DNA of 33,073 nucleotides from Solirubrobacterales bacterium 70-9 (GTDB lineage Bacteria > Pseudomonadota > Alphaproteobacteria > Acetobacterales > Acetobacteraceae): assembly GCA_903970625.1 (NCBI GenBank), contig CAJCJG010000130.1, forward strand, positions 1 through 33,073, read 5' to 3'. Positions within the stretch are counted from its first letter, which is position 1, and every line of letters starts with the position of its first letter. The notes beneath the pieces are model-generated. The model made no database searches. It saw only the letters and a program-made list of their open reading frames with translations, and had not been told where the DNA came from. Below are positions 432-17,277 of this stretch, piece after piece. The translations under genes and the position numbers were made by a program.

Positions 432-1604
432 ATGTCGCGCCGCAACATGGATGCCGCCCCGCCCGATCTCCCGAACGGTCCACTGCCCGCCTACCGGGCG
501 ATGCTCGCCGACGGCCGCCTCGCGTCCGACCCGGCGCAGCGCATGGCCGCCGAGCGCCTGCAAGACCTCTGGACCAAGCTGCGCGGCTACGACCCGCCGC
601 CGATGCCAGCCCCCACCAATTCGCTGCTCGCCCGTTTCCTGCGCCGCAAACCGGTCGAGGGCGCGGACGAAGCGCGCCCCCACGGCCTGTATCTGGTCGG
701 CGAGGTCGGGCGCGGCAAATCCATGCTCATGGATCTGTTCTTCGCCGCAGCCCAAGTGCGCCGCAAGAAGCGCATTCATTTCCACCGCTTCATGCAGGAT
801 GCGCACGCCGGCTTCCACCGCTGGAAGCGCGAGAACCCGGACGGCGACGACCCGATCCCGCCGCTGGCCGATGCCATCGCCGCCGAGGCCGCCCTGCTGT
901 GCTTCGATGAATTCCAGGTCAACGACATCGCCGACGCGATGATTCTCGGCCGCCTGTTCCAGGCGCTGTTCGAGCGGGGCGTCGTGGTCGTGGCGACCTC
1001 CAACATCGTCCCCGACAATCTGTTCGCCGGCCAGCCCGGCCGCGATGCATTTTTGCCGTTCATCGCGCTCATCAAACAGCGCCTCGACGTGCTGGTGCTG
1101 GAGGGTGTGCGCGACTATCGCCGCCAACGGCTGCGCAGCCTGTCCACCTGGCACGTCCCGGCCGACCGCCGCGCCGAACGCGCGCTGGACGAGGCGTTCG
1201 CGGACCTCATTGGTAACGCGCCCCCGCGCGAGGAGCGCCTCGTCGTCATGGGCCGCAAATTGTCGGTTCCGCTCGCCGCCGAGGGCGTCGCCCGCTTCGA
1301 TTTCTCCGCCCTGTGCGGCACCCCGCTCGGCGCCGGCGACTATCTGGCCCTCGCCACGCATTTTCACGCGCTGGTATTGGACGCGATCCCCCGCCTCAGC
1401 CCGGCCAACTACGACGAAGCCCGCCGCTTCATCACCCTGATCGACGCCCTGTACGACCACCGCGTCAAACTCGTCGCCTCCGCCGCCGCGATGCCGGACC
1501 AGCTCTACGAACGCGGCGAGGGCGCCAAAGCCTTCGAACGCACCGCGTCGCGGCTGGAGGAAATGCAAAGCCAGGAGTACCTGGAGTTGCCGCATCTGAC
1601 GTAG
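432..1604 (+). CDS. zapE: Cell division protein ZapE / AFG1-family ATPase
   Basis: A 390-residue AFG1/ZapE P-loop ATPase. Family members are cytoplasmic AAA-like ATPases; E. coli ZapE acts at the Z-ring late in division, and mitochondrial AFG1 acts in protein quality control. The protein opens with the typical Pro-rich PLPAYRAMLADGRL stretch. Walker A, GEVGRGKSM, is at about residues 90-98, followed by a DLFF helix. Walker B, LLCFDEFQVNDIADAMI, lies near residues 155-171, then the VATSN sensor stretch and NYDEARRFITLIDALYD near the C-terminus. ATG at 432 was chosen because the family homology begins within about 15 residues of it; the frame is open further upstream but that part is low complexity. 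ATG 447 is an alternative. The next gene begins 64 bases downstream on the same strand and is functionally unrelated. Confidence 0.93.
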   Translation: MSRRNMDAAPPDLPNGPLPAYRAMLADGRLASDPAQRMAAERLQDLWTKLRGYDPPPMPAPTNSLLARFLRRKPVEGADEARPHGLYLVGEVGRGKSMLMDLFFAAAQVRRKKRIHFHRFMQDAHAGFHRWKRENPDGDDPIPPLADAIAAEAALLCFDEFQVNDIADAMILGRLFQALFERGVVVVATSNIVPDNLFAGQPGRDAFLPFIALIKQRLDVLVLEGVRDYRRQRLRSLSTWHVPADRRAERALDEAFADLIGNAPPREERLVVMGRKLSVPLAAEGVARFDFSALCGTPLGAGDYLALATHFHALVLDAIPRLSPANYDEARRFITLIDALYDHRVKLVASAAAMPDQLYERGEGAKAFERTASRLEEMQSQEYLELPHLT

Positions 1605-1668
1605 CGCGCCGACCGGTTGAACGCGCGACCCGCAGGTGCATAATCGAAAAAACGAGGGAGGGAGCGCG

Positions 1669-3369
1669 ATGACGAACATGTCGTCGATGGCAAAATACGG
1701 GCTTGTCCTGGCGGTGGCCCTGGTCGCCGCGCTTGGTAGCGCACGGGCCGCCCCGGCATTGTCGTGCGCCGACATGGCCAACCAAACCGTTCCCGCGTCC
1801 GCCATCGGCCTGCCGACAACCGGCGCCGCCGTGACGGCCGCCATCGACCTGCCTGCGGGCGGGGACGCCCCGCACATTTTCGGCGCATATTGCCGGCTCG
1901 ACATCGGCATCGCGCCGGTCGATCCGGCCGCCCCCAAGATTCTGATGCGATTGGCCCTCCCCGAAGCCTGGAACAAGCGCGCCATGATGTTCGGGGGTGG
2001 CGGCTACAACGGCTCCATCCCGAGGCTCACCGACAACGTGCCTGCCGGCCCTGCGGACAAACTCACGCCCCTCGGGCGCGGCTACGCCGTGTTCGCCAGC
2101 GATTCCGGCCACGAGGGAAGCGACGCCGACAACGCCGGGGCCTTCGCGCTGAATGCCGAGGCGCTGGCAAACTACGGGCACGACGCGCTCAAAAAGACGC
2201 GGGACACCGCGCTCTACCTCATCGGCAAGCGCTACGGCGAGGCCCCGGCGAAGATCTACTTTGCCGGGGGATCGACCGGCGGGCGCGAAGCCCTCGCCGT
2301 GGCGCAGCAATGGCCGAACGACTTCGATGGCGTGATTGCGCTCTATCCGGCGTTCAATGCCGCCAGCCTGAATCTCCAATTCGGCCGCATCACCCGCGCG
2401 CTGGCGCTGCCAGGCGCCTATCCGAATCTGCGCAAGCGCGCCGCCCTGTACGATGCCGCGATGGAAGCCTGCGACGGGTTGGACGGCGTCAAAGACGGCT
2501 TGATCAGCAATCAGGCCAAATGCAACGAAATCTTCGATCCCTCGACCGCGACCTTGAAGGGCTACCCGTTGCGCTGCCCGGATGGGTCCGACGTGTCCGA
2601 CACCTGCCTGTCGGACGCCCAAATCGCGGCCATGAAAGTGATCAACACGCCGATCATCTTCGATTATCCACTGGCGAGCGGCGAAAACCAGTACCCCGGA
2701 TTCAATACGTGGGGGACCGATTTCGGGCGCCCCGGAACGGGCGTCGTTCAGGTCATTGTCAACCGTCTGGGTTTGAGCACCGTGCAACCCGAATATCCGA
2801 TTGCAGGTTTCGGAACCACGATCGACAGCGTGCCCTATCATTCGGGCTTCTGGGACCAGTGGATCAAATACTTCGTCACCCGCGATCCGACCTACAATTC
2901 CTTTACGGTGGACCCTGAGCATCCCGGCCGGTGGCAGTCCCGCATCAGCGAACTGACACGGCGGCAGGACGTCAACAAGGCGGACCTGTCGGCCTTCGCC
3001 GCCCATGGCGGCAAGATTCTGATGGCGCACGGCACGTCCGATCAGTTGGTCAGCACGCGCGCGACGGAGCAATATTTCAATCGGGTACGCAGCATCATGG
3101 GGCCGGACCGTACCGCCGGGTTCATGCGCTACTATGAAATCCCCGGCTACAATCACGCTCTCAGCACCACCTTCGCCGCGTCGTGGGATTCGCTCACCGC
3201 CCTGGAGGATTGGGTGGAGAAAGATATCCCGCCGCCGCCGCAAATCGTGGCCGACACTGCCGGCGTTCCCGGTCGCCACCGGCCGCTGTGCGAGTATCCG
3301 TCCTGGCCGCAATACAACGGCTCGGGCGATGTGAACGCGGCCTCCAGTTTTGCCTGCGTCTCGGAATGA
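1669..3369 (+). CDS. Secreted tannase/feruloyl esterase family hydrolase, atypical active site
   Basis: A 566-residue alpha/beta hydrolase of the tannase/feruloyl esterase family, whose members cleave aromatic esters (gallates, ferulates, MHET). It begins with a signal peptide: a short basic start, the hydrophobic core YGLVLAVALVAALG, and a likely cut after SARA. ATG 1669 is preceded by the strong purine-rich site GAGGGAGGGA. Predicted triad: Ser202 in FAGGSTGGRE, Asp458 in HGTSDQLV, His496 in PGYNHAL. The CDGLDGVKDGLI stretch matches the calcium-binding lid region, and the C-terminal CEYPSWPQYNGSGD block is characteristic. The family's CS-D-HC motif places cysteines directly before the catalytic Ser and directly after the catalytic His. 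Here these are Gly201 and Ala497. Family membership is sure; the substrate is unknown. Confidence 0.92.
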   Translation: MTNMSSMAKYGLVLAVALVAALGSARAAPALSCADMANQTVPASAIGLPTTGAAVTAAIDLPAGGDAPHIFGAYCRLDIGIAPVDPAAPKILMRLALPEAWNKRAMMFGGGGYNGSIPRLTDNVPAGPADKLTPLGRGYAVFASDSGHEGSDADNAGAFALNAEALANYGHDALKKTRDTALYLIGKRYGEAPAKIYFAGGSTGGREALAVAQQWPNDFDGVIALYPAFNAASLNLQFGRITRALALPGAYPNLRKRAALYDAAMEACDGLDGVKDGLISNQAKCNEIFDPSTATLKGYPLRCPDGSDVSDTCLSDAQIAAMKVINTPIIFDYPLASGENQYPGFNTWGTDFGRPGTGVVQVIVNRLGLSTVQPEYPIAGFGTTIDSVPYHSGFWDQWIKYFVTRDPTYNSFTVDPEHPGRWQSRISELTRRQDVNKADLSAFAAHGGKILMAHGTSDQLVSTRATEQYFNRVRSIMGPDRTAGFMRYYEIPGYNHALSTTFAASWDSLTALEDWVEKDIPPPPQIVADTAGVPGRHRPLCEYPSWPQYNGSGDVNAASSFACVSE

Positions 3370-3400
3370 AGGCCGGTCGCGGCTGTCCCGGACCGCTGGC

Positions 3401-4195
3401 CTAGACCACCCGGTCCACCGGATAAAGCTGTGCCGCCAGCCACGGCGCCAGCCGCGCCTGCACTTCTTTCGCCTGGTCCGTCGTCAGCGCCCGCTTCCAC
3501 CGCCCGACTTCGCCCGTGCGGTTGGCATGGTGGCTGTGCCAGTGCGTCGCCGGGTCCAGCAGGTCGCCGCTCTCGCGATGGATCAGCACGCCGGGCTTCG
3601 TGGCCATCCCGGCAATGTGCCGCTCCACCTCCCGCCGGCGCGTGGCCGCAAAAATCCGCGTCCGGTCGGCCACCGGCAGCGCCACGCCCAGGCGCGCCGC
3701 CAGCCTGTCCAGCGTCGCCGGGTCGTCCACAAACCCCGCCTCGTAGCGCAGCACCAGCGCCCGCGAATCGGCGGCGAACCGGCCGCACTGCTCGGCAGAC
3801 TTCGCCGCCAGATCCAGCGCGCCGGCAAAATCCCGCTTCTGGTACTGCATCACCGACGCCACCACGTCCAACGGGTCGCGGATCGTCACGAACACCACCT
3901 CGGCCGCCGCCGCCAGCGCCGCCTCGGCTGGCGCGTCCGTCTCGTGCGACTTCACCAGCAACAGTCGGCGCGCCTTCGCCAGACTGCCCACGTCGCCCAA
4001 GCTCGCGACGAACCGCCCCTCGCGCGGCACGTCGGGCGCCGTCGCCTCGGCGAGCTTCATCAGCACATTGAACAGCCACGTCGAGCCGCTGGCATACATG
4101 CCCAGGCCCCACACGATGCCCCCGTCCCGCCCCAGCCGCACTGCCAAACCCTCCGAACGCCGCTGCAAATCACCGCATGCCGGCGGGCGAGGCAA
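3401..4195 (-). CDS. Sulfotransferase-like protein
   Basis: A 264-residue protein with the two PAPS-binding signatures of the P-loop sulfotransferase fold. The 5'-phosphosulfate loop-like LGMYASGSTWLFNVLM lies at about residues 31-46. The 3'-phosphate site-like FVTIRDPLDVVASVMQ lies at about residues 102-117, with the Arg/Asp/Pro and the downstream Ser in place. It presumably moves sulfate from PAPS to a hydroxyl on a sugar or small molecule in the cytoplasm; the acceptor is unknown. The gene ends 31 bases from the convergent tannase-like gene and is divergent from the GT61 gene with an 83-base gap, so it may belong with a surface glycan set. ATG 4195 is the chosen start. Residues 1-27 are not conserved-looking, so a later start is possible. 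Confidence 0.82.
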   Translation of the reverse strand: MPRPPACGDLQRRSEGLAVRLGRDGGIVWGLGMYASGSTWLFNVLMKLAEATAPDVPREGRFVASLGDVGSLAKARRLLLVKSHETDAPAEAALAAAAEVVFVTIRDPLDVVASVMQYQKRDFAGALDLAAKSAEQCGRFAADSRALVLRYEAGFVDDPATLDRLAARLGVALPVADRTRIFAATRRREVERHIAGMATKPGVLIHRESGDLLDPATHWHSHHANRTGEVGRWKRALTTDQAKEVQARLAPWLAAQLYPVDRVV

Positions 4196-4278
4196 CCCGC
4201 CCCAACTTGGCGTCGGCAGCTTGGCGTCTGCCCCCCGCCCCGGTAGATACCGTACGCAAGCCGGGATAAATTCGTCGC

Positions 4279-6141
4279 ATGACCGATACGCTGGCCGATA
4301 TCGACACGCTCGCCGATCTGGTAGCTGACCCGCGCCCCCCGGCCCGCCTGCTGACCCGCCTGGAGAGTCTGGATGCCACCGGGGACGAAGCCTCCGCCGC
4401 CCTCGGCGCCAGCCTGTTCGAGAGCCTGCATTACCGCTTGCCCGCCTTCTCCGACGATGTGCTGCCGTCAGTCGCCAGCCGGCTCTACGCCCGCCTCGGC
4501 CGCGCCGACGCGGCCCTGTTGCTGGCGGGGCTGGCCGCGCAACTGCGCCCTCAACACGCGCCGACGCTCGATGCGCTGGAGACGCTGCGCACCGCCTTCC
4601 ACAGCCCGCAGCCAGACCAAGCCGTTGCCGCCAAGGCGGCAGCCCTGGTCCAGCAGCACGACCCCGGCGAGGCCCTGCAACTGGCGCTGGAGGCCATGGA
4701 CACCGAGGCCGGCCAGCTCGCCTCCGCCGCGTTGTTCGAGGCGATCTGGCCCCGCGTGCGGCCGATGTCGCAATACTGGGTCTATCACCGGATGAGCAAC
4801 GTCTATGCCGCCCTCCGCCGCGCCGACGCGTGCGCGCTGCTCGCGGCCCTGGCCATCCAGATCAAGCCGGCCGACCCCGCCTCGGATAGCCCGCACCGCC
4901 ATTTGCTGGACTATTTCCGCGCCGCCCAGCGGTCGCGCGACGCGGCCGAATTGTGCCTGCGCCGCGCGGAATTGTGCCCCTCGCCATCGCTGCTGCACGA
5001 GCCGGAATTATGCCGGTTGCGCGCCGTCGCCGGACCATTGCGCCTCTCGCCGCCCCCGGCCGGCCGCAGCGACCGGCCATTGATGCCGCGCGAGCCGAAA
5101 ATCGTGCGGTCGTGGCGCAGCTACGGCGCCGGCGTGCCGCTGTGCCTGGTCGAGATGCAGCGCGACATGGTCCACGAGCCGATCGCGATGTCGGAACTGC
5201 GCAACGCGGACGTGCTGATCGACAACGGCGCCGTCGCCGTGTTCGGGGCGGACGGCGTGCCCCATGTCGATCTGTCCCTGCGCTGCTTCCCGCCGCTGCT
5301 GCGCCGTGCCCTGGCCGAACAGGCGGATGGCCCGGGCGCCGCCGAGGAATTCGAGGCTGACGAAGCGGTCGTTATCACCGACGAATTTCCCGGCCCCAAT
5401 CTGTGCCATTTCCTGCTCGACCACGCGACCCGATTGGAACTTTACCGCCGCGCCGGCGTGGCCATTGCCGAAACGCTGGTAATCGGGCCGGAACTGCACG
5501 CCGAATATCAAGCGGAGACGGCGGAGCGGATGGGGGTGCGCAGCTATCTTCACGTCAACCGCCGCGCACGTGTTCGCGTCTCCCGACTGTGGGTCAGCTC
5601 AAACTGCCACAACCAGCGCCATCCGGCACATTGGGGCGCGGCCTGGGCGCTCGATGCGGTGCGCGGCAAGTTCGATCTCGCGCCGCGCCACCCCGGCCGC
5701 CGGCTGCTCGTCTCCCGCCGCGATTCGCCCTGGCGGCGCATTCGCAACGAAGCGCAGTTGATGGATCTGCTGGAGCCACTGGGGTTCGAGATCATAGTAC
5801 CAGGCGAACTCACCTTCGCCGAGCAGGTCGCGGCGTTCCGCGACGCGACCCACATCATCGCGCCGCACGGCGCGGGGCTGGCCAATATTCTGTGGTGCGC
5901 GCCGGGCACCAGCGTGCTGGAGGTGTTCCATCCCCACTACGGCACCTGGGCCTATGCCATGCTGAAGGACATTCTGACACTCGACTACGCCGCGCTGGTC
6001 GCGCGCGACGCCGATTCCGAGGCGCCGGACTTCAACGACACGTCGCTGCCGCGCGAACAAATGGTGCAACATGCGGGGCGCGACATGTGGGTCGATCCCA
6101 ACGAACTGGAGCGTTGGCTGGTGGAAAGCGGGGTTTTGTGA
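4279..6141 (+). CDS. GT61 (DUF563) family glycosyltransferase with N-terminal helical repeats
   Basis: A 620-residue protein. The N-terminal half (about residues 1-260) is Ala/Leu-rich and made of helical TPR-like repeats: SRLYARLGRADAALLLAGLA recurs in diverged form as YAALRRADACALLAALAIQ. The C-terminal half is a GT61 domain. Its markers are NLCHFLLDHATRLELYRRAG, the RRLLVSRRDS-PWRRIRNEAQL block, and the hallmark APHGAGLANILWCAPGTSVLEV with its His near residue 530. GT61 enzymes transfer sugars such as xylose or GlcNAc to glycans; bacterial members are usually tied to capsule or lipopolysaccharide. Donor and acceptor cannot be told. The stop overlaps the GTG start of the aconitase-X large subunit (GTGA), implying co-translation. 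An AT-rich TAAATT lies 6 bases before the ATG, with no clear Shine-Dalgarno. Confidence 0.87.
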   Translation: MTDTLADIDTLADLVADPRPPARLLTRLESLDATGDEASAALGASLFESLHYRLPAFSDDVLPSVASRLYARLGRADAALLLAGLAAQLRPQHAPTLDALETLRTAFHSPQPDQAVAAKAAALVQQHDPGEALQLALEAMDTEAGQLASAALFEAIWPRVRPMSQYWVYHRMSNVYAALRRADACALLAALAIQIKPADPASDSPHRHLLDYFRAAQRSRDAAELCLRRAELCPSPSLLHEPELCRLRAVAGPLRLSPPPAGRSDRPLMPREPKIVRSWRSYGAGVPLCLVEMQRDMVHEPIAMSELRNADVLIDNGAVAVFGADGVPHVDLSLRCFPPLLRRALAEQADGPGAAEEFEADEAVVITDEFPGPNLCHFLLDHATRLELYRRAGVAIAETLVIGPELHAEYQAETAERMGVRSYLHVNRRARVRVSRLWVSSNCHNQRHPAHWGAAWALDAVRGKFDLAPRHPGRRLLVSRRDSPWRRIRNEAQLMDLLEPLGFEIIVPGELTFAEQVAAFRDATHIIAPHGAGLANILWCAPGTSVLEVFHPHYGTWAYAMLKDILTLDYAALVARDADSEAPDFNDTSLPREQMVQHAGRDMWVDPNELERWLVESGVL

Positions 6142-7382
6142 TTCTCACCGACGACGAAACCGCCATCGCCGCCGGCGGCCACGGCGAGGGGGCCGCCATC
6201 GCGCTGCGTCTGGTTGCCGAGTCCGGCCGGCTGCTCGGCGCGGACGGGCTGGTGCCGGTCGCCTCCGCCCACATCGACGGCTGCCTGTATCACGGCGATT
6301 CCGGCACCGAATTCGCGGAATTCCTGGTCGCCAAGGGCGCCCGCGTGACGGTGCCGGCCACATTGAACGTGGGCGCCCTCGATCTGCTGCGCCCCGGCAA
6401 CGTCCGCCTCGCGGGCGGCCGGCGGAACATGGCGCTGCGCCTGATGCGCGCCTACGAGGCGCTCGGCTGCCGCAGCACCTGGACCTGCGCGCCTTATCAG
6501 GCCGGCCACCGGCCGGACGCGGGCAGCGACGTGGCCTGGGGCGAATCCAACGCGGTCGCTTTCTGCAACTCCGTCCTCGGCGCCCGCACCAACCGCTACG
6601 GCGATTTTTTGGACATCGCCTGTGCCATCGCCGGCCGCGCGCCGCGCTACGGCCTGCATATCGCAGCCAATCGGCGGGCCACGGTGCGGGTGGATACGTC
6701 CCCCTTGTCCGACGCGTTGAAAGCCCGCGAGGCGTTCTGGCCGGTGCTGGGCGCGTGGCTCGGCCGCACGGTGGGCGAGGACATCGCCGTCATCGACGGA
6801 CTTGCAGCCCATGCCACCGAGGACCGGATGAAGGCGCTGGGCGCCGCCGCCGCCTCCACCGGTGCCGTCGCCCTGTTCCACATTTCTGGGGTCACGCCCG
6901 AAGCGTCCACCGCCGAAGCCATATTGGCGGATCAGTTTGCCACGGTCACATTGACCCCAGCGGACGTGCGCGACTCGCGCGCACTCCTATCCACGGCTTC
7001 GGGCGACGCTGTGGATGCCGTCGCCGTCGGCAGCCCGCATTTCTCGCTCGACGAAATTATTGCGCTCGAAATCCTGCTGGCCGGCCGCCGCGCGCGGGTG
7101 CCGATCTATCTGAACACCAGCCGCCATGTCCTCGGCAAAGTCGAACGCGAAGGCCGGCTCGCGGGCCTGACGGGGTGCGGGGTGGTGCCCATCGTGGACA
7201 CCTGCGTCGTCGCCACCCCGATCATGCCGGCGGCGGGCGGCGTGCTGATGACGAACTCGGGAAAATTCGCGTTCTACGCGCCCGGCAACACCGGCTACGC
7301 GGTCCAGTTCGGCAGCCTCGCCGACTGCGTGGAAAGCGCCATCGCCGGTCGTCTGGTGCGCGACGAGGCCGGCTGGCAATGA
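6138..7382 (+). CDS. Aconitase X catalytic (large) subunit
   Basis: A 414-residue aconitase-X (DUF521) large subunit. AcnX enzymes are Fe-S hydro-lyases; characterised members are archaeal phosphomevalonate dehydratase and bacterial cis-3-hydroxy-L-proline dehydratase. Recognisable blocks are VASAHIDGCLYHG near residues 41-53, TVPATLNVGALDLL near 71-84, ESNAVAFCNSVLGARTNRYG near 136-155, and TGCGVVPIVDTCVVATPIMP near the C-terminus. Several cysteines (C143 and those in the last block) are candidate cluster ligands. The start is GTG 6138 within a GTGA overlap with the GT61 stop. The frame is open far upstream, but only from 6138 does it look like the family. The small subunit follows with an ATGA overlap. 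No proline-degradation or mevalonate gene is adjacent, so the substrate is unassigned. Confidence 0.9.
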   Translation: MILTDDETAIAAGGHGEGAAIALRLVAESGRLLGADGLVPVASAHIDGCLYHGDSGTEFAEFLVAKGARVTVPATLNVGALDLLRPGNVRLAGGRRNMALRLMRAYEALGCRSTWTCAPYQAGHRPDAGSDVAWGESNAVAFCNSVLGARTNRYGDFLDIACAIAGRAPRYGLHIAANRRATVRVDTSPLSDALKAREAFWPVLGAWLGRTVGEDIAVIDGLAAHATEDRMKALGAAAASTGAVALFHISGVTPEASTAEAILADQFATVTLTPADVRDSRALLSTASGDAVDAVAVGSPHFSLDEIIALEILLAGRRARVPIYLNTSRHVLGKVEREGRLAGLTGCGVVPIVDTCVVATPIMPAAGGVLMTNSGKFAFYAPGNTGYAVQFGSLADCVESAIAGRLVRDEAGWQ

Positions 7383-7768
7383 GGCAGGCTCTGTTCCCGG
7401 GCGACGCCGAGGGCGAGGTACTGGTGCTGGCCGCGCCCCTGAGTTTTTGGGGCGGCGTGTCGTGGGAGACCGGTGCCATCACCAACGTCCGCCACCCGCA
7501 AATGGGCCAAGTGGTAACGGGGCGGGTGCTGGTGATACCGGAACCGGTCGGCTCCTCGTCGTCGTCCGCCGTGCTGCTGGAACTGATCCGCTCCGGCCGC
7601 GCCCCCGCCGCCATCGTCCTCGGCCGGCCAGACGCGATTTTGGTCGTCGCCTGCCTGGTCGCCCGCGAGATGGGATGGCCGGCGCCGCCAATCGTGTTGG
7701 CGCCCGATTTTCGGGGCACCGTGTCGGGCCGGGCTAGAATCGTTGGCGGCGTTTTGGACTACGGTTGA
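7379..7768 (+). CDS. Aconitase X swivel-domain (small) subunit
   Basis: A 129-residue DUF126/AcnX small subunit, the swivelling domain that packs on the large subunit to close the active site. Diagnostic stretches are LSFWGGVSWETGAITNVRHP (residues 20-39), VTGRVLVIPEPVGSSSSSAV with its Gly-Ser-rich loop, and LELIRSGRAPAAIVLGRPDAI. The separate-subunit layout corresponds to the two-gene bacterial/archaeal AcnX form rather than the fused one. The ATG at 7379 overlaps the large-subunit stop (ATGA), so the two are almost certainly made together. The last 10 bases overlap the end of the convergent hydroxylase-family gene on the other strand. Confidence 0.9.
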   Translation: MRQALFPGDAEGEVLVLAAPLSFWGGVSWETGAITNVRHPQMGQVVTGRVLVIPEPVGSSSSSAVLLELIRSGRAPAAIVLGRPDAILVVACLVAREMGWPAPPIVLAPDFRGTVSGRARIVGGVLDYG

Positions 7769-8529
7769 AACGGCATCGCCAAAAGACGCCAGAATCCGAG
7801 CGATTTTGCCGAGTCTGGTCCAGGGATTCCAAGGGTTGCCGAAGTCTGCCCGGCGGCCGGCGCAGCCCGATCGGTGCCGAAAACGCGGTCCCACACCGAC
7901 AGGAAAAACCCGAAATTGGAGTCGGTTTCGGCCTGTTCGACGGAGTGATGAATGCGATGCATGTCGGGCGTCACGACGAATTTTCGAACGATCCTGTCGA
8001 ACGACTCGGGAATGCCGATATTGCCGTGCGTGAAAATCGCAGCCCCGTTCAGCGTCGACTCGAACACCAGCACCGTCCACGGATCGACACCGAGCGCCAG
8101 CACCACACCGGCCTTATAGATCAACGAGATGACGATTTCGCCCGGATGGAATCGCAGCCCGCTGGAGGCGTCCAGGTCGGGGTCAGTGTGGTGGACCCGA
8201 TGCAGCCGCCATAGCCACGGCACGGCGTGAAAAACCCGATGTTGTAGATAGAGGGCGCAATCCAGCACCACGAAGCCGACGACGGCCTTTATCGGCCACG
8301 GCCAATGCATCAAAGGCAACAGCCCAAACCGGTGTTCTTTCGCATAGACCGCCGCCGCGATCGCGGCGGCGCCGAACAAAAGCCGTTGGACGACGATATC
8401 GATGGCAATCAGGCCGAAATTGGCAGCCCACCGGCGCCACTTCCGATACCGCAATTGCCGCCGAGGCCACCAAGCTTCCAATAGCGCGACAACGGCAAAC
8501 ACGGACGCGAAAATTCCGAAACGAATCAT
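7759..8529 (-). CDS. Sterol desaturase / fatty acid hydroxylase family membrane protein
   Basis: A 256-residue integral membrane di-iron oxygenase-type protein. The histidine clusters of the family are visible: HRVFH at residues 97-101, HRVHH at 110-114, FHPGE at about 128, THGN in the middle, and HRIHHS further on. These bind two irons for hydroxylation or desaturation of a lipid. Hydrophobic segments occur at about residues 3-20, 38-62 and 80-96, and another lies between the histidine clusters. The start, ATG 8529, lies 5 bases after the stop of the GT2-GtrA gene, so the two form an operon. The 3' end overlaps the convergent AcnX small-subunit gene by 10 bases. The substrate is unknown; a hopanoid, fatty acid or other membrane lipid are options. 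Confidence 0.9.
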   Translation of the reverse strand: MIRFGIFASVFAVVALLEAWWPRRQLRYRKWRRWAANFGLIAIDIVVQRLLFGAAAIAAAVYAKEHRFGLLPLMHWPWPIKAVVGFVVLDCALYLQHRVFHAVPWLWRLHRVHHTDPDLDASSGLRFHPGEIVISLIYKAGVVLALGVDPWTVLVFESTLNGAAIFTHGNIGIPESFDRIVRKFVVTPDMHRIHHSVEQAETDSNFGFFLSVWDRVFGTDRAAPAAGQTSATLGIPGPDSAKSLGFWRLLAMPFQP

Positions 8530-8534
8530 CGCCG

Positions 8535-9674
8535 CTACTTCGCCCGGCCCCAGGTGTAAGTGGACGCAATGGCATAGTTCCAGACGGCGCCGATCAAGGC
8601 ACCCGCCAGCCCCGCCAGCCACCAGCTACTGCCATCGCCGAAAACCTCTCCGGCGATGCCGATGTTGGCGACCGCGCCGATGCTGCACCCGACACAGAAT
8701 GTCACCAGTCCGCGCACCAGTCGCGCGCCCTTCAACCGCCGGTCGCGATAGGTGAACTTGTTGTTGAGCATGAAATTGCAGACCATCGCTGCAATCGTCG
8801 CGAGCGTCTCGGCCACCGAGAACCGCGCGCCGAGCCCCAGAAACGCCCGTAGCACCAGCAGATTGACCACCACGCCCAGGCCGCCGATCAGCGCGAACAG
8901 CACAAAGCGCACCGGAATGATGTGGCCGACCAACTTGTCGGCAATCAACATCAGATATTCCCAGGCCACCATGGAATCGAGCTTGCTCTCGCCGAACCTG
9001 CGCGCCCGGAACGTGAACGCCAGTTCGCGAAACCGTAGCTTGCGCGGCGAGGACGCAAAAATGTCCAGGAGGATTTTGAAGCCCTGGCCGGACAGATGGC
9101 GCACGGCGCCAGAGAAAACCTCGCGCCGCAGCATGAAGAATCCGCTCATCGGGTCGGCGAGGTCCGACTTCACGATCAGGCGAGAGAGTTTGGTGGCAAG
9201 TCCGCTGATCGCCACCCGCTTGGCGTCCAGGTCCCCGGTGCCGCCGCCGGGGATGTAGCGGCTGGCCACGACGATATCGAGGTCGCCGCCTGCAAGCGCC
9301 GCATACATTTGCGGCAGCAACGTCTCGTCGTGTTGCAAGTCGGCATCCATCACCGCAACGACCGGTGCCGAGGTTGCGAGGATTCCCTCGATGCAGGCAC
9401 TGGAAAGCCCTCGCCGGCCGATGCGTTGCAGGCACCGCACGCGCGGATCGGTTTGTGCCAGCCGCCGCACGACGTCGGGCGTGCCGTCGCGCGAATCATC
9501 GTCAACAAACAGAACTTCCCACTCGATTCCGGCCAAAACCTCGTGCAACAACCCAACCAGCACCGGCACGTTGGCGCTCTCGTTCAGCGTCGGCACCACC
9601 ACGGCAAGCTGCCGCGAACTCCAGGCCTGCCCGGGCGCAGCGCCGCCGTCGTAAGGGGTCGCGTCCAATGCCAC
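8535..9674 (-). CDS. GT2 polyprenyl-phosphate glycosyltransferase with GtrA domain
   Basis: A 379-residue fusion. Residues about 22-240 form a GT2 catalytic domain of the dolichol-phosphate-mannose synthase type: AVVVPTLNESANVPVL, FVDDDSRDGTPDVVRRL with the DDDS motif near 58-61, and VMDADLQHDETLLPQM with the DAD metal motif near 110-112. Residues about 250-379 form a GtrA-like domain with four hydrophobic segments, starting at VRFVLFALIGGLGVVVNLL. Such proteins put a sugar on undecaprenyl phosphate at the inner face and help it reach the periplasm for glycan decoration. It is the first gene of a two-gene operon with the hydroxylase-family gene. Upstream at 9706-9730 is a palindrome that could be an operator. 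Confidence 0.93.
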   Translation of the reverse strand: MALDATPYDGGAAPGQAWSSRQLAVVVPTLNESANVPVLVGLLHEVLAGIEWEVLFVDDDSRDGTPDVVRRLAQTDPRVRCLQRIGRRGLSSACIEGILATSAPVVAVMDADLQHDETLLPQMYAALAGGDLDIVVASRYIPGGGTGDLDAKRVAISGLATKLSRLIVKSDLADPMSGFFMLRREVFSGAVRHLSGQGFKILLDIFASSPRKLRFRELAFTFRARRFGESKLDSMVAWEYLMLIADKLVGHIIPVRFVLFALIGGLGVVVNLLVLRAFLGLGARFSVAETLATIAAMVCNFMLNNKFTYRDRRLKGARLVRGLVTFCVGCSIGAVANIGIAGEVFGDGSSWWLAGLAGALIGAVWNYAIASTYTWGRAK

Positions 9675-9705
9675 TCTCCAACTCTTCGCGCTTGCTGCCA
9701 GAAAG

Positions 9706-9730
9706 GCGTAAGTAAAGCAATTGCTTACGC
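9706..9730. promoter_or_regulatory. Nested palindrome in a divergent intergenic region, candidate operator
   Basis: Outer arms GCGTAAG (9706-9712) and CTTACGC (9724-9730) enclose a perfect 12-base palindrome AAGCAATTGCTT (9715-9726). The region is AT-rich compared with its surroundings and lies 31 bases upstream of the GT2-GtrA start and 84 bases upstream of the LysE-family start. The symmetry and position suit a dimeric regulator. No regulator gene is adjacent, so the identity of any binder is unknown. Confidence 0.35.
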
Positions 9731-9814
9731 TAAAATCCCATGCGCCGGGCGCACGGGTGGGCGGTGCCGGCGTCGGATATCGTGCCCCGATCCGGCGAGA
9801 CTACCATCCCAATC

Positions 9815-10447
9815 ATGGCAACGACCCTAACCCAGTGGCTGCTGCCCGTCATCGGTTTCGCCGTCGCGATATCGGCGACCCCGGGGCCGAACAACATCAT
9901 GGTCGCGGCCTCCGGCGCCACCTTCGGGCTGGCCCGCACGGTCCCGCATCTGCTGGGAATCGCGGTTGGCTTTCCGGTCATGCTGATGCTCGTCGCCATC
10001 GGCGCGGCCGAGCCGCTGCGGACGCTGCCTTGGCTGCACGAGTCGCTGCGGTGGGTCGGCGCGGCCTACATGCTGTGGCTGCCCTGGCACATCGCGCGCG
10101 CCGAACCCGTGGTGGCCAATGCCGACAGCCGCGCCGCCGCGCAACGCCGGGGCCGCCCGATGACGTTCCTGCAAGGCGCGCTGTTTCAATGGGTCAACCC
10201 CAAAGCCTGGGTGGCAGCCGGCGGCACCGTCATCACCTACATCACCGCGACCGGCGCCGATTTCTGGGCGCAAGCGGCTGTGCTGGGGGCGGTGTTTCTG
10301 GTGGCCACCGTGGTTTTCGTTGGCCTGTGGGCGGGAATTGGCGCGGGTGCCGCGCGGGTATTGCGAACGGCGCGCGCTGTGCAGCGATTCAACTGGGCGA
10401 TGGCAGGTCTGTTGGTCCTGTCGCTGGTGCCGCTTTTCATGGAATAG
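9815..10447 (+). CDS. LysE/RhtB family amino acid exporter
   Basis: A 210-residue membrane protein of the LysE/RhtB efflux family, which exports amino acids or their analogues across the inner membrane. The hallmark SATPGPNNIMVAASGATFGL lies in the first 40 residues, followed by a GIAVGFPVMLMLVAIGAA helix and the conserved GALFQWVNPKAWVAAGG block near the middle. About six hydrophobic segments are visible. ATG 9815 gives a start right at the first helix; the open frame upstream (from 9740) is not family-like. The gene ends 5 bases from the end of convergent hemW. The exported substrate cannot be predicted. Confidence 0.9.
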   Translation: MATTLTQWLLPVIGFAVAISATPGPNNIMVAASGATFGLARTVPHLLGIAVGFPVMLMLVAIGAAEPLRTLPWLHESLRWVGAAYMLWLPWHIARAEPVVANADSRAAAQRRGRPMTFLQGALFQWVNPKAWVAAGGTVITYITATGADFWAQAAVLGAVFLVATVVFVGLWAGIGAGAARVLRTARAVQRFNWAMAGLLVLSLVPLFME

Positions 10448-10452
10448 CGCGG

Positions 10453-11601
10453 CTACGCCACCAGCGCCCCCAGCAATGAATCCAACCGCTTCCGCCCCTC
10501 CGGCGTCGCCCGCAGGCAGCCGTTGTCGCGGGCCAAATAGTCGGCCTCCAGCGCGCGGGCCAGGATGTCCGCGTCGAGCGCGGCATCCAGGTGTATCCCG
10601 GTACGGGTAAAAAATCGCGCTTCGTCAATACCTTCAGTCAGGCGCAGCCCCATCAGCAGCATCTCGCGGGCGCGCTCGTCGGACGCGACCGGCACCTCGT
10701 CGGTGCTACCGTGCCCGTCGCGTTCGACGCGCTCCGCCCAGGGTTCCGGGGCGCGATGCCGGCGCGTGGCGAGCAAGGCACCATCGACGCTGACGCGACC
10801 GTGGGCACCGGGGCCGATGCCGGCGTAGTCGCCGTAGCGCCAGTAGGCGAGGTTGTGGCGGCTTTCCGAGCCCGGCCGCGCGTAGTTGGAGACTTCGTAC
10901 GGAAGCAGACCGAATTTTCCCGCCTCCTCCGCCGTCGCGTCGTACAGCGCGGCGGCGGTGTCGTCGTCCGGCAGCACGATGTCGCCGCGCGCGTGCGACG
11001 TGAAAAACGCTGTCCCGGGTTCGATGGTCAGTTGGTAGAGCGACAGGTGATCAGACGCGAGCGCCAGCGCCTGTCGCAATTCGGCGCGCCACGCCGCCTC
11101 GCTCTGGCCCGGGCGGGCATAGATCAGATCGAACGACACGCGGGGGAAGATTTTTCGGGCACGTTCCAACGCTGCAATGGCCTGATCCGCCGAATGCTGC
11201 CGCCCCAGCATCGTCAGCGACTCCGCTTTCAGGCTTTGCACGCCGAGGGAAATCCGGTTGACACCGGCTTGCCGGAACGCGGCAAGACGGGCGGCTTCGA
11301 CGCTGGTGGGGTTGGCTTCCAGCGTGATTTCCAGGTCCGGCAAAGGATCGAACAGACGGCGCGCGTCCTCGATCAGGTCGGCCACGGTCTGCGCGTCCAT
11401 CAGGCTCGGCGTGCCGCCGCCGAAGAAGATGCTGGCCATCGGCCGGCGGCCGAGGCGGGCAGCTTCCCACGCCAGTTCGGCGCGGAGCGCGGCGGCGAAG
11501 CGATGTTGGTCGATCCGCTCCCGCACATGGCTGTTGAAATCGCAGTACGGGCACTTGGCGAGGCAGAATGGCCAGTGGATATAGAGCGCGAGCGGTTCCA
11601 T
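10453..11601 (-). CDS. hemW: HemW, radical-SAM heme chaperone (coproporphyrinogen oxidase-like)
   Basis: A 382-residue radical-SAM protein of the HemW/HemN-like group. The CxxxCxxC cluster motif is CLAKCPYC (C13, C17, C20), preceded by LYIHWPFC as in HemW. Next come FFGGGTPSLM (the SAM-contacting GGGTP), LEITLEANPTS, RISLGVQSL and SFDLIYARPGQ. The C-terminal HemW region includes YEVSNYARPGSESRHNLAYW and AGIGPGAHGR. HemW binds heme and delivers it to apoproteins; the spacing CxxxCxxCxF rather than CxxxCxxCxC points to HemW instead of true HemN. ATG 11601 was chosen because the protein begins there as in relatives. The start is only 19 bases from the divergent YbaK-like gene. Confidence 0.93.
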   Translation of the reverse strand: MEPLALYIHWPFCLAKCPYCDFNSHVRERIDQHRFAAALRAELAWEAARLGRRPMASIFFGGGTPSLMDAQTVADLIEDARRLFDPLPDLEITLEANPTSVEAARLAAFRQAGVNRISLGVQSLKAESLTMLGRQHSADQAIAALERARKIFPRVSFDLIYARPGQSEAAWRAELRQALALASDHLSLYQLTIEPGTAFFTSHARGDIVLPDDDTAAALYDATAEEAGKFGLLPYEVSNYARPGSESRHNLAYWRYGDYAGIGPGAHGRVSVDGALLATRRHRAPEPWAERVERDGHGSTDEVPVASDERAREMLLMGLRLTEGIDEARFFTRTGIHLDAALDADILARALEADYLARDNGCLRATPEGRKRLDSLLGALVA

Positions 11602-11620
11602 CCGCCGGGATATAGGGCAA

Positions 11621-12097
11621 ATGGCCGAGAAAAACTCCGTCGAGCGGGTCAGGGCTGCACTGCTGGCCGCCGGCCACGCGGACACCATCGCGACGTTCCC
11701 GGAAGGCACGCGCAGCGCCGCAGACGCCGCAGCCGCCATCGGCTGTTCCGTGGCCCAAATTGCGAAATCGGTTGTGTTCCGCGCGAATGGCGAGCGGACA
11801 GCGGTCGTGATCGCGTCCGGCGTCAACCGCGTGGACACGGCGAAAGTGGCGGCGTTGCTGGGCGTGACGCTGAAGCGGGCGGATGCGGAGTGGGTGCGCG
11901 AGCACACCGGCTTCGCCATCGGCGGCGTTTCGCCGGTGGGGTTGTTGGGGACGCCGTTATTGGTGTTCGACCGGGATTTGCTGGCACTTCACCCGATCTA
12001 CGCGGCGGCCGGCTCGCCCCAGCATATTTTTCGGACCGAGGCGCAGGCCTTGGCGCGGATGACGGGGGCAGTGGTGGCGGAGGTTCGGGAGGGGTAA
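11621..12097 (+). CDS. YbaK/EbsC-family aminoacyl-tRNA deacylase
   Basis: A 158-residue protein of the YbaK/ProX-type editing family, which hydrolyses mischarged aminoacyl-tRNA (for example Cys-tRNAPro or Ala-tRNAPro). The fold signatures are AQIAKSVVFRANGERTAVVI with the conserved Lys, a basic/alpha stretch VNRVDTAKVAALLGV, and the substrate-pocket motif FAIGGVSPVGLLG, followed by LLVFDRDLLALHPIYAAAGS. The length is normal for stand-alone members. The gene is divergent from hemW with a 19-base gap; TATAGG lies 4 bases before the ATG. It ends 3 bases from the convergent antitoxin gene. The tRNA specificity is not predictable from the sequence. Confidence 0.88.
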   Translation: MAEKNSVERVRAALLAAGHADTIATFPEGTRSAADAAAAIGCSVAQIAKSVVFRANGERTAVVIASGVNRVDTAKVAALLGVTLKRADAEWVREHTGFAIGGVSPVGLLGTPLLVFDRDLLALHPIYAAAGSPQHIFRTEAQALARMTGAVVAEVREG

Positions 12098-12100
12098 AGT

Positions 12101-12445
12101 CTACCCGGCGAGTGCGCGCAGGGCCGCATCCGGCTCGCGTTCGACAATCCGGAGCAGGGCACGGACGGCCGAACTCATCGAAGCCTGAGAGTCCTCCCAC
12201 TCGCGCACCGTCGAAACCGGCACGCCGATGGCATCGGCGAACGCTTGCCGGGTCATTCCCAGCTTCATCCGAATCGAACGGGCATCTGGAACGGACCGAA
12301 ACGGCGGGAGCGGGGCGTCGGGGTCTTCACCATCCTCGATCTGATGGCGGCGAATATCGTCGTCCGTCGTGGCCGCGATCTTGGCACGGTCGACCTCCGG
12401 TTTGCGCTCCCGGATCTGCGCGAGCGTCATCGGTTCGCCAGCCAT
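12101..12445 (-). CDS. Xre-type antitoxin paired with a BrnT-like toxin
   Basis: A 114-residue protein. Residues about 20-50 are acidic (TTDDDIRRHQIEDGEDPDAP), resembling the toxin-binding front part of BrnA-type antitoxins. The rest is a helix-turn-helix of the Xre class: RSIRMKLGMTRQAFADAIGV followed by the recognition helix PVSTVREWEDS. The gene lies downstream of, and overlaps by 19 bases, the BrnT-like toxin gene, the usual toxin-first order for BrnTA. It should neutralise the toxin and repress the shared promoter. The classical BrnA has a ribbon-helix-helix instead, so this is the HTH-partner variant. Confidence 0.82.
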   Translation of the reverse strand: MAGEPMTLAQIRERKPEVDRAKIAATTDDDIRRHQIEDGEDPDAPLPPFRSVPDARSIRMKLGMTRQAFADAIGVPVSTVREWEDSQASMSSAVRALLRIVEREPDAALRALAG

Positions 12446-12696
12446 CGAACTCGTTCCTTTCTGTCCGCAAGCCGGGCGGAGATGATACGGCGAACGTCGC
12501 CCCGGTCGGTGAAGACGATATGGAGCACCATGCCCTCCGCCTCACCGATTGCACGCACGCGCACCTCGCCATAGTCCCGCCGGTCATCCGGCCACTCGAT
12601 TGTCGTGCCTTCAAATATAAGAGCCGCAACGTCGAAACCGAAGCCACGCTGACTCCGGTTCCACTCGTCTTTCACAGGGTCCCAATCGAACCTCAC
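12427..12696 (-). CDS. BrnT-like toxin (RelE-fold ribonuclease family)
   Basis: An 89-residue protein matching the BrnT family. It begins RFDWDPVKDEWNRSQRGFGF (family pattern: F-W-D-x-x-K, N, then G and F), followed by DVAALIFEGTTIEWPDD and the C-terminal IISARLADRKERVRWL block. BrnT toxins cut mRNA and are held in check by the partner. The start is a GTG at 12696, where the family pattern starts; the frame is open to 12792 but that extension is not family-like. The KHG that normally follows the first helix reads QRG here, so the usual His is absent. Overlap with the antitoxin gene supports one transcript. Confidence 0.8.
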   Translation of the reverse strand: MRFDWDPVKDEWNRSQRGFGFDVAALIFEGTTIEWPDDRRDYGEVRVRAIGEAEGMVLHIVFTDRGDVRRIISARLADRKERVRWLANR

Positions 12697-12785
12697 GGCG
12701 CAGTATTGCGCCCGCACCCTCGCGGATGGAAGGCCGGACACTGGATCACCCGATAACCAGGCGGCTCCGGCGGGCCGCCCCTTGC

Positions 12786-12814
12786 TTGACACCCCCCGCG
12801 CCCCCCGCTAACCC
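12786..12814 (+). promoter_or_regulatory. Candidate sigma-70-type promoter for fabD
   Basis: A perfect -35 hexamer TTGACA (12786-12791) is followed, 17 bases on, by TAACCC (12809-12814), a weak -10. It lies 36 bases before the fabD ATG in the region divergent from the toxin-antitoxin operon. The spacing and -35 are good, the -10 is poor, and no experiment supports it. Confidence 0.4.
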
Positions 12815-12850
12815 GCCGCGCCAGCCGAACCCACCACGGGACTCCACCCC

Positions 12851-13810
12851 ATGCCCGTCCACGCCTTCATTTTTCCCGGCCAGGGCAGCCAGGCCGTCGG
12901 CATGGGCCGCGACCTCGCGGCGGCCTTCGGCGCGGCGCGCGAGGTCTTTGGCGAGGTGGACGAAACCCTGAAGCAGAAGCTGAGCAAGCTGATGTTCGAG
13001 GGGCCGGCCGAGGAACTGACGCTGACCGAAAACACCCAGCCCGCGCTGATGGCGCACTCGCTCGCGGTGCTGCGCGTGTTGGAGACCGAGGGCGGTTTCG
13101 TGCTTGCCGACAAGGCCGTGGTCGTCGCGGGGCATTCCCTGGGCGAATATTCCGCACTGGCGGCAGCCGGCAGTTTTTCGGTGGCGCAGGCGGCGCGGCT
13201 GCTGCGGTTGCGTGGGCAGGCGATGCAGAAGGCTGTCCCGCCAGGCGAGGGCGCGATGGCCGCGCTGCTCGGCGCCGACCTCGAACTGGCGAAAGAGATT
13301 TGCGCGGCGGCGGCTGTGTCGCCGGACGGCAAGCGCGACGTGGTCGAACCGGCCAACGACAATGGCGGCGGGCAAGTGGTGATTTCGGGCGCCAAGGCGG
13401 CCGTGGAACGGGCCATCGAGGTTTCGCGGACCAAGGGCGTCAAACGCGCGCTGCTGTTGCCGGTCTCCGCGCCGTTCCACTGCGCGCTGATGGCGCCGGC
13501 GGCGGACGCGATGCAAGCAGCGCTGGAGGAGAGCCGGCCGGTCGCGCCGATGGTGCCGCTGGTCGCCAACGTCAGCGCCGCCAAAGCCACCGACCCGGAC
13601 GAGATCGCCCGGCTGTTGGTGGCGCAGGTCACGGCCACGGTGCGCTGGCGCGAGAGCGTGCTGGCGATGATCGGGTTGGGCGTGGACAGTTTTATCGAAC
13701 TCGGCGCCGGCAAGGTGCTAGCGGGCCTCGTGAAGCGGATCGCGCCGGATGCGGCGACCGCCTCGGTCGGCTCGCCGGCCGAGATCGAGCAGCTTCTCAA
13801 GACGCTGTAG
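12851..13810 (+). CDS. fabD: Malonyl-CoA:ACP transacylase FabD
   Basis: A 319-residue enzyme that moves malonyl from CoA to acyl carrier protein, supplying the extender unit of type II fatty acid synthesis. Motifs in order: IFPGQGSQAVGMGRDLA near the N-terminus, TQPALMAHSLAVLRVL, the nucleophile elbow AGHSLGEYSALAAAG with Ser96, and PVSAPFHCALM with catalytic His210. The conserved Arg of the malonyl-carboxylate clamp is present in RLRGQAMQKAVPPGEGAM. The length is typical. It leads the fabD-fabG-acpP-fabF-mltG operon; fabG starts 11 bases after its stop. A TTGACA box lies upstream. Confidence 0.96.
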   Translation: MPVHAFIFPGQGSQAVGMGRDLAAAFGAAREVFGEVDETLKQKLSKLMFEGPAEELTLTENTQPALMAHSLAVLRVLETEGGFVLADKAVVVAGHSLGEYSALAAAGSFSVAQAARLLRLRGQAMQKAVPPGEGAMAALLGADLELAKEICAAAAVSPDGKRDVVEPANDNGGGQVVISGAKAAVERAIEVSRTKGVKRALLLPVSAPFHCALMAPAADAMQAALEESRPVAPMVPLVANVSAAKATDPDEIARLLVAQVTATVRWRESVLAMIGLGVDSFIELGAGKVLAGLVKRIAPDAATASVGSPAEIEQLLKTL

Positions 13811-13821
13811 GACGGACAGAC

Positions 13822-14559
13822 ATGTTTCGGCTGGACGGAAAGGTGGCGCTCGTGACGGGTGCCTCCGGCGGCATCGGCGCCGCCATCGCGCGGGCGCTGC
13901 ATGCGCAGGGGGCAGTCGTCGCCCTGTCCGGCACGCGGCGCGAGGCGCTGGACGCGCTGGCGGCGGACCTCGGCGAGCGCGCGCATGTCTGTCCTGCCGA
14001 TTTGCGCGATGCGACGGCCACGGAGGCACTGGTGGCGGCAGCGGAGGCGGCGGCGGGGCCGCTGTCCATCCTCGTCAACAACGCAGGGCTGACCCGCGAC
14101 ATGCTGGCGCTGCGGATGAAGGACGAGGACTGGGCGACGGTGTTGGAGGTGGATTTGACGGCCCCGTTCCGCCTCGCGCGCGCGGCGCTGAAGGGCATGC
14201 TGCGGCGCCGGGCCGGGCGGATCGTCTCGATCGGCTCTGTGGTCGGAAGCACCGGCAACGCGGGGCAGGCCAACTATGCGGCGGCGAAGGCGGGTTTGGT
14301 CGGCATGACCAAGGCGTTGGCGCAGGAAGTCGGCAGCCGTGGCATCACCGTCAATCTGGTGGCGCCCGGCTTCGTCGCCACCGCGATGACCGACGGGCTG
14401 CCGGACGCGCAGAAGGAAAAGCTGACGGCGGCGATCCCGCTCGGGCGGCTCGGCCAGCCGGCCGACATCGGCGCGGCCGTCGTCTATCTGGCCAGCGACG
14501 AGGCGGCGTGGGTCACGGGTGCCACGCTTCATGTGAATGGCGGCATGGCGATGCTATAG
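13822..14559 (+). CDS. fabG: 3-oxoacyl-[ACP] reductase FabG
   Basis: A 245-residue short-chain dehydrogenase acting in the first reduction of fatty acid elongation with NADPH. The cofactor loop TGASGGIG is at residues 12-19, NNAG at 86-89, and the catalytic triad at Ser139, Tyr152 and Lys156 (YAAAK). The C-terminal [18 protein letters not shown] and [15 protein letters not shown] are standard FabG ends. The start, ATG 13822, directly follows the purine-rich GGACGGACAGAC and sits 11 bases after the fabD stop. The position between fabD and acpP makes the FabG assignment secure over other SDR enzymes. Confidence 0.95.
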
Positions 14560-14692
14560 GGCGGTCGGCGTCGTTGGGCCGCCGGGTTGGCCGTGTGACG
14601 AAACCGTGCTAATCGCCGCGCCGCTTCGTCCGGGGAGGATCGGCGCTGGACGAGACGATGAACCAGGACAGGCAGGCAGGAGCAGGACTTCC

Positions 14693-14932
14693 ATGAGTGA
14701 GATCGCCGACAAGGTGAAGAAGATCGTCGTCGAGCACCTCGGCGTCGAAGAGGGCAAGGTGACGCCGGAGGCGTCCTTCATCGACGATCTTGGCGCGGAC
14801 AGCCTCGACACGGTCGAGCTTGTCATGGCGTTCGAAGAGGCGTTCGGCGTGGAAATCCCCGAGGACGCGGCCGAGAAGATCAGCACCGTGCGCGATGCGG
14901 TGGACTATATCGAAAAGCAAAAGGCGGTCTGA
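14693..14932 (+). CDS. acpP: Acyl carrier protein AcpP
   Basis: A 79-residue, very acidic acyl carrier protein. The 4'-phosphopantetheine attachment site is Ser37 in [19 protein letters not shown], followed by [20 protein letters not shown], the classical helix III-IV sequence. It carries growing acyl chains between the fab enzymes. ATG 14693 follows the purine-rich GGCAGGCAGGAGCAGGA; the frame is open upstream to 14537, but the protein begins [10 protein letters not shown] as in relatives. The 133-base gap after fabG may hold a secondary promoter, although none was clear. Confidence 0.97.
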
Positions 14933-15002
14933 ACAGCCTGGGCGGCGCCGGTTTCGGCGTGGGTCGTGGGCTAGGCCCCGGGGTTAGGCAAGGATGACAG
15001 CC

Positions 15003-16265
15003 ATGCGGCGGGTCGTGGTCACGGGCATGGGGATCGTCTCCCCCCTGGGCGTTGGGGTGGAGCATGTCTGGAAGCGGCTGATCGAGGGCGATTCCGGCAT
15101 CACCGCCATCCAGTCGTTCGACGTGGCGGACATGCCGTGCCGCGTGGCCGGCACCATCCCGCGCGGCAGCCGGGCCGACGGCAAGCTGGACGTTGCCGAG
15201 TGGGTGCCGCCCAAAGACCACAAGAAGATGGACAAGTTCATCCAATACGCGATGGCCGCGGGGTCCGAGGCGGTCGAGGACAGCGGCTGGCTGCCGACCG
15301 ACGAGGAAGACCGCTGCGCCACCGGCGTGATGATCGGCTCGGGCATTGGCGGCGTGGAGACCATCTACGAGGGTTCGGCGCTGATCCTGGCCGGCAAGGG
15401 TAAGCGGCTGTCGCCGTTCTTCATCCCCTCGGCCCTGATCAACCTCGCCTCTGGAAATTTTTCGATCAAGTACGGCTTCAAGGGTCCGAACCATTCGGCC
15501 GTGACGGCGTGCGCCACGGGCGTCCACGCCATCGGCGACGCGGCCCGGCTGATTGCGTTCGGGGATGCGGACGTGATGGTGGCCGGCGGTGCCGAGGCGC
15601 CGGTCAATCCGATCGGCATGTGGGGATTTTGCGCGGCGCGCGCGATGTCCACCAACTTCAACGACACGCCGGCCCTGGCCTCCCGCCCTTGGGACAAGGA
15701 TCGCGACGGGTTCGTCATGGGCGAGGGCGCGGGCGTGGTGGTGCTGGAAGAGTACGAGCACGCCCGCAAGCGCGGCGCCAAGATCTACGCGGAAATTGCC
15801 GGCTACGGCATGTCTGGCGACGCCCACCACATCACGGCGCCGGCCGAGGGCCATGAAGGCGCCTTCCGCGCCATGAAGGCGGCGCTGCGCAGCGGCGGGC
15901 TGCACCCATCCGACATCCAGTATATCAATGCTCACGGCACCTCGACGCCGCTCGGCGACGACCTGGAGCTGGAAGCGGTCGAGCGGCTGTTCGGCGACGC
16001 CGCGAACGGCGTGGCGATGTCCTCCACCAAGTCAGCGACCGGCCATCTGCTGGGCGCGGCCGGCGCCATCGAGGCGATTTTCTCGATCTTGGCGATCCGT
16101 GACGGTATCGCGCCCCCGACATTGAATCTGGACGAGCCGAGCCGGGCCAGCGTCATCGACCGGGTGGCGAAGGTGGCACAGGAGCGGCGGATCGACGTGG
16201 CCCTGTCCAACAGCTTCGGCTTCGGCGGCACCAACGCCAGCGTGCTGTTCAAGAAGGCCGCCTGA
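15003..16265 (+). CDS. fabF: 3-oxoacyl-[ACP] synthase II FabF
   Basis: A 420-residue beta-ketoacyl-ACP synthase II that condenses malonyl-ACP with acyl-ACP. The active-site Cys170 is in VTACATGVHAIGDAARLI. The two catalytic histidines are His311 (NAHGTSTPLGD) and His348 (SATGHLLGAAG). The N-terminal MRRVVVTGMGIVSPLGVG and C-terminal NSFGFGGTNASVLF are family ends. The ATG at 15003 is preferred because AAGG ends 9 bases upstream; an in-frame ATG at 14994 gives three extra residues but abuts that site. FabF normally follows acpP in alphaproteobacteria, as here. Confidence 0.96.
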   Translation: MRRVVVTGMGIVSPLGVGVEHVWKRLIEGDSGITAIQSFDVADMPCRVAGTIPRGSRADGKLDVAEWVPPKDHKKMDKFIQYAMAAGSEAVEDSGWLPTDEEDRCATGVMIGSGIGGVETIYEGSALILAGKGKRLSPFFIPSALINLASGNFSIKYGFKGPNHSAVTACATGVHAIGDAARLIAFGDADVMVAGGAEAPVNPIGMWGFCAARAMSTNFNDTPALASRPWDKDRDGFVMGEGAGVVVLEEYEHARKRGAKIYAEIAGYGMSGDAHHITAPAEGHEGAFRAMKAALRSGGLHPSDIQYINAHGTSTPLGDDLELEAVERLFGDAANGVAMSSTKSATGHLLGAAGAIEAIFSILAIRDGIAPPTLNLDEPSRASVIDRVAKVAQERRIDVALSNSFGFGGTNASVLFKKAA

Positions 16266-16266
16266 G

Positions 16267-17262: not shown

Positions 17263-17277
17263 GAGCCGCTTGTCCGG

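Follow-up and report, generated by a model that had tools for sequence, protein, structure and literature searches.

The window, by which we mean the whole 33,073-nucleotide stretch of DNA analysed here, carries an intact open reading frame of 566 amino acids at positions 1669-3369 of the plus strand (ATG at 1669-1671, stop at 3367-3369), upstream of which a GGGAGGG-like ribosome site can be read from the sequence. The PF07519 profile matches its product over nearly the whole length (E 4.3e-110, 369.3 bits against a cut-off of 29.8). A long antisense open reading frame (1465-3312, minus) was dismissed as a GC-rich shadow. The gene, its recognisable elements and its neighbours are as follows.

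432-1604: AFG1-like ATPase, neighbour of the tannase-family gene.
1669-3369, plus: PF07519 (tannase/feruloyl esterase/MHETase) alpha/beta-hydrolase of 566 aa with a Cys-less active site, from the reading frame, the profile match and the model.
1669-1749, plus: probable Sec signal peptide, a hydrophobic stretch with an AxA-like site at its end, assigned by eye with an approximate end.
2182-2205, plus: helix motif DALKKTRD (residues 172-179), in which K175, K176 and D179 are markers of the main Cys-less clade.
2266-2283, plus: nucleophile loop GGSTGG, codons read, with Gly201 at the Cys position and Ser202 as the predicted catalytic residue.
2470-2499, plus: calcium-loop motif CDGLDGVKDG, with acids D269, D272 and D276 kept in the alignment to MHETase.
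3040-3042, plus: codon of Asp458, the putative catalytic Asp from its aligned column.
3145-3159, plus: His loop GYNHA, with His496 as the predicted catalytic residue and Ala497 at the Cys position.
3401-4195, minus: sulfotransferase, neighbour of the tannase-family gene.
4279-6141: GT61 glycosyltransferase, neighbour.

The Ser-Asp-His triad of the encoded protein (S202, D458 and H496) aligns with the PF07519 family, and the nucleophile motif, with its preceding residue, reads AGGSTGG. Enzymes of the CS-D-HC type have a Cys before the Ser and a Cys after the His, joined by a disulfide; the window protein has G201 and A497 instead and is not of this type. The translated reading frame bears out both the residue numbering of the first-pass annotation (G201-S202, D458, H496-A497) and its claim that the two cysteines are jointly absent with Ser, Asp, His and other cysteines kept. 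That annotation had also named a Cys elsewhere reaching the same positions as a way in which it could be wrong. The protein has eight cysteines (C33, C75, C268, C285, C303, C313, C541 and C563), all in the eight non-active-site columns conserved in Cys-containing and Cys-less rows alike, so that none is spare to replace the active-site pair. By alignment the cysteines of the family's other four disulfides appear to be present, as do the calcium-loop acids D269, D272 and D276, which we take to be calcium-coordinating.

An AF2 model built on a 45-sequence alignment (mean pLDDT 89.2 and pTM 0.89, with a mean pLDDT of only 72 in the His-loop block 491-500) predicts, over residues 27-565, an alpha/beta-hydrolase core with a large lid as in MHETase and FaeB. 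The top matches by Foldseek and VIA-align were MHETase, FaeB/FaeC and TanA, with other alpha/beta-hydrolases far behind (Z 19), and the subfamily profile run against solved structures gave 12 distinct sequences, all MHETase/FaeB/FaeC/TanA-type enzymes. With MHETase of Ideonella sakaiensis (6QGA, 6QZ3) the model would have the whole fold in common (Z 36.5, 2.8 Å over 501 residues) at 27-28% identity; the triad and the calcium-loop acids appear common to both sequences, and the cysteines align at conserved structural columns within the MHETase stretch compared. In fold the window protein also resembles two fungal enzymes at 25-26% identity, Aspergillus oryzae FaeB (3WMT, Z 35.5) and Fusarium oxysporum FaeC (6FAT, Z 34.3), and, more distantly, the tannin acyl hydrolase TanA of Aspergillus niger (7K4O, Z 28.0). 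Fungal tannases have the CS-D-HC arrangement.

MHETase Cys224-Cys529, in contrast, has no equivalent in the window protein. An alignment by eye further places Gly at the position of MHETase Ser131, a residue named in PMC7568301, and the window protein therefore gives no sign of MHET specificity. According to PMC6461665, MHETase has a calcium site, and FaeB has the active-site disulfide that the window protein is without. The same paper describes a tannase of Lactobacillus plantarum (ESTHER Block H) whose triad lacks the disulfide as in the window protein, but whose sequence is strongly different and whose lid has another fold.

According to PMC6461665 the active-site disulfide is more than 80% conserved in the tannase/feruloyl esterase family, and work on MHETase and FaeB regards it as conserved and important (PMC7568301, PMC12347902). 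The bond is reported to be crucial in AoFaeB (PMC12347902, PMC8861512), and full-length MHETase without it to have given no soluble protein (PMC7568301). These reports would favour reading a gene without the pair as a pseudoenzyme or decayed copy, in which the disulfide was lost as catalysis was no longer selected. Against this, the aligned rows of the main Cys-less clade described below retain the Ser, Asp and His in intact reading frames, and members of that clade come from many genera and from two phyla. We reject decay because it would not preserve the triad together with the eight other cysteines, and consider a pseudoenzyme highly improbable.

Homologues were present in 10 of 60 related genomes searched. 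The two nearest, from the same bacterial family (L003 and L004, 48-51% identity), are both without either Cys; more distant ones (~28-35% identity) carry CSxGG and HC. A scan of a genome collection found 254 relatives, the best 80 of which were retained (55-68% identity), and all 80 of these are double-negative, with GGS[ST]GG and with Ala, Ser, Gly or Val after the His. They come from Stutzerimonas, Cupriavidus, Paraburkholderia, Caballeronia, Noviherbaspirillum, Collimonas, Herbaspirillum, Xenophilus and other genera. A match was also found in 162 plasmid records, and the six opened, among them Agrobacterium fabrum C58 pAt and a plasmid of Rhodococcus (Actinomycetota), all lack the pair. On the Rhodococcus plasmid (L168) the Cys-less member stands beside a 'PHB depolymerase family esterase' with insertion-sequence genes close by, a context that suggests spread of Cys-less members to Actinomycetota.

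PF07519-family matches occurred in 51 of 398 genomes of a phylum sample, in 24 of 385 in a class search and in 64 of 299 in a family search, the rows read from the last being a subset that leaves aside many weaker matches. Of the 70 proteobacterial rows of the phylum sample, 40 have both Cys and 29 have neither; the remaining row is half of a broken gene. The 70 rows correspond to 69 genes, L161 being split over two rows scored 'both' and 'single' (the other half missing), and eight genomes whose matches are all weak or partial (G450, G385, G322, G101, G310, G366, G202 and G240) fall outside this census. The CS-D-HC pair is thus less universal in bacteria than assumed. Where the first-pass annotation took the pair as a family rule that would fail if most bacterial members lacked it, the absence in 29 of 70 rows does not amount to most, but the rule is softer than supposed. 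The same fraction, and a published conservation given only as more than 80% in PMC6461665, would fit ordinary family variation, in which many bacterial members can do without the bridge and its loss means nothing for function.

For the tree we used 130 rows, of which 79 have both cysteines (CC), 50 neither and one a single Cys. Excluded were duplicates (L012, L015-L017, L179, L189, L191, L195, L196), broken, partial or weak rows (L161, L187, L190, L192, L193, L197-L199), two plasmid rows of the same subfamily (L169, L170) and the second tandem copy in L051, and only 8 of the 80 genome-scan loci were included. All trees were quick ones with SH-aLRT support only and no inferred root, and both trait columns were omitted. 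Forty-four Cys-less rows form one clade (SH-aLRT 99) whose sister lines contain Cys (L143 with L181, then L183), and four form a second clade (SH-aLRT 97) amid Cys-containing rows in the same part of the tree as MHETase. The two remaining Cys-less rows, L160 and L162, belong to a very distant group; they match PF07519, have the motif GHSQGG and are perhaps a separate family. The state changes 3 times over 101 rows against a shuffled mean of ~34 and, scored as three states, 4 times over 130 rows against a mean of 41. A single origin of both Cys-less clades was rejected (225 log-likelihood units worse, p-AU 0.00016, on 48 chosen rows and without a mixture model). The active-site pair was lost independently at least twice, and we speak of loss rather than gain on these unrooted trees because the Cys-less clades are nested among Cys-containing rows.

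Together with the double-negative state of all 80 retained loci and of L003 and L004, the small number of changes relative to shuffles indicates more than chance. Absence is confined to a few clades, with 3-4 changes against ~40 in shuffles, and proteins with a single Cys are very rare (1 of 130 rows); both facts argue for constraint, and we regard ordinary variation without functional meaning as rather unlikely. The single-Cys row, L186, which comes from the class and family searches, is an intact PF07519 protein with the His-side Cys only (GGSAGG / GAGHC) and is possibly a half-way state between the Cys pair and none. Another row from these searches, L188, reads GCGNGG, with the Cys kept and Gly at the position of the nucleophile Ser, and is possibly a pseudoenzyme.

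The retention of the triad, the calcium-loop acids and the other disulfide cysteines marks a maintained subfamily rather than decay, and the Cys-less branch is a real enzyme lineage, not a decayed gene. The first-pass annotation had proposed a correlated loss that defines a functional subfamily and not random decay. Much of this stands, as the loss is correlated and clade-wide, in a maintained clade of 44 rows (SH-aLRT 99) with the triad kept and at least two losses in the family. It needs amending in that the window protein has this old loss in common with its whole clade, and in that one Cys can be kept without the other, as in L186. We found no description of a Cys-less PF07519 clade in the open-access literature searched.

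The reading that we favour, and hold to be likely, is that the window gene encodes a secreted or periplasmic PF07519 ester hydrolase of horizontal origin from an old clade without the disulfide, whose loops are held non-covalently. To judge from its signal peptide and family, the protein would be exported and would act as a carboxylic-ester hydrolase, with the putative Ser202-His496-Asp458 triad set in an alpha/beta-hydrolase core beneath a large lid and with a calcium loop that may bind calcium. The disulfide between the Ser loop and the His loop would have been lost as a unit in the old clade, and acylation and deacylation would proceed as in MHETase and FaeB with both loops kept in place by non-covalent packing. 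Substrates would probably be aromatic or other small acyl esters.

The 'differently held active site' that the first-pass annotation attributed to Cys-less enzymes is plausible, and the alignment offers a candidate for what holds it: a specific non-covalent clamp near the Ser and His loops, made of helix charges (K175/K176, D179 and D529) and aromatics (F142, Y489, F502 and W506). In its favour, D179 occurs in 44/44 main-clade rows and Asp at this position in 1/79 CC rows, K176 and D179 occur together in 41/44 against 0/79, and an aromatic residue is found at 142 in 44/44 main-clade rows and mostly at 502 and 506. A basic residue stands at position 182 in 72/79 CC rows and a non-basic one in the other 7; among the 50 Cys-less rows 44 are non-basic there, with members of both clades among them (three of the four rows of the second clade), and the position changes in none of 16 CC control clades. 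Against it, marker columns of the main clade are not in excess (2, versus 3 and 4 in two other clades), the second Cys-less clade is without K175, D179 and D529, and parallel changes in that clade affect 4 of 142 columns, a count equal to the highest in the 16 CC control clades (range 0-4). We think this particular clamp quite unlikely and put it forward as a candidate suggested by the alignment, not a result. An independent-pairs test had three pairs only, too few for significance. K175/D179/D529 were rejected as a proven disulfide substitute, being possibly ordinary clade markers absent from the second Cys-less clade, and Y489 was rejected as diagnostic, since it is present in 16/79 CC rows.

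A tentative extension, of which we are somewhat more doubtful than convinced, is that a whole, widespread branch of the tannase/MHETase family functions without an active-site disulfide described as essential. On this view the Ser and His loops can be pinned in several interchangeable ways, the disulfide among them, non-covalent holds would have replaced it at least twice, and the active site of Cys-less enzymes would withstand reducing conditions. A large natural branch that keeps this fold and triad but has no such disulfide would make the role of the bond testable on natural enzymes rather than on unstable mutants, and its members might be scaffolds that fold without an oxidised active site.

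The genomic setting bears on the origin of the gene. Its GC content is 0.646 against 0.69 for its neighbours, and the nearest rows among the best 80 of the 254 relatives are from Stutzerimonas (66-68% identity). A search of one genus mate did not find the gene, an absence that is uncertain because that genome is 87% complete. In the genus mate polA and a gene judged by eye to be NUDIX-like precede the sulfotransferase block, and the AFG1 gene lies, inverted, directly at the block's other end. The block, at ~3409-17270 of the window, is thus joined differently in the genus mate (window 1600-3410 and 14990-17270; L228 and L240), which places the tannase-family gene at a rearrangement breakpoint. 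Breakpoint, lower GC and Stutzerimonas relatives together make a horizontal gain likely, with a Stutzerimonas-like or beta-proteobacterial lineage as the probable donor.

Across 82 loci, no open reading frame cluster recurred in at least four genera other than those of the gene, of its antisense shadow and of a GGDEF/EAL-like protein (named by eye) at a median position ~6.6 kb away; with no conserved gene neighbours, these loci give no operon clue and no pointer to substrate. A betaproteobacterial MAG (L051) carries tandem Cys-less tannase-family genes at 7800-9596 and 9560-11407. The N-termini of L044, L169 and L170 show by eye lipobox-like LSAC, LVGC and LAAC, in contrast to the plain signal peptide of the window protein, and some members may be lipoproteins.
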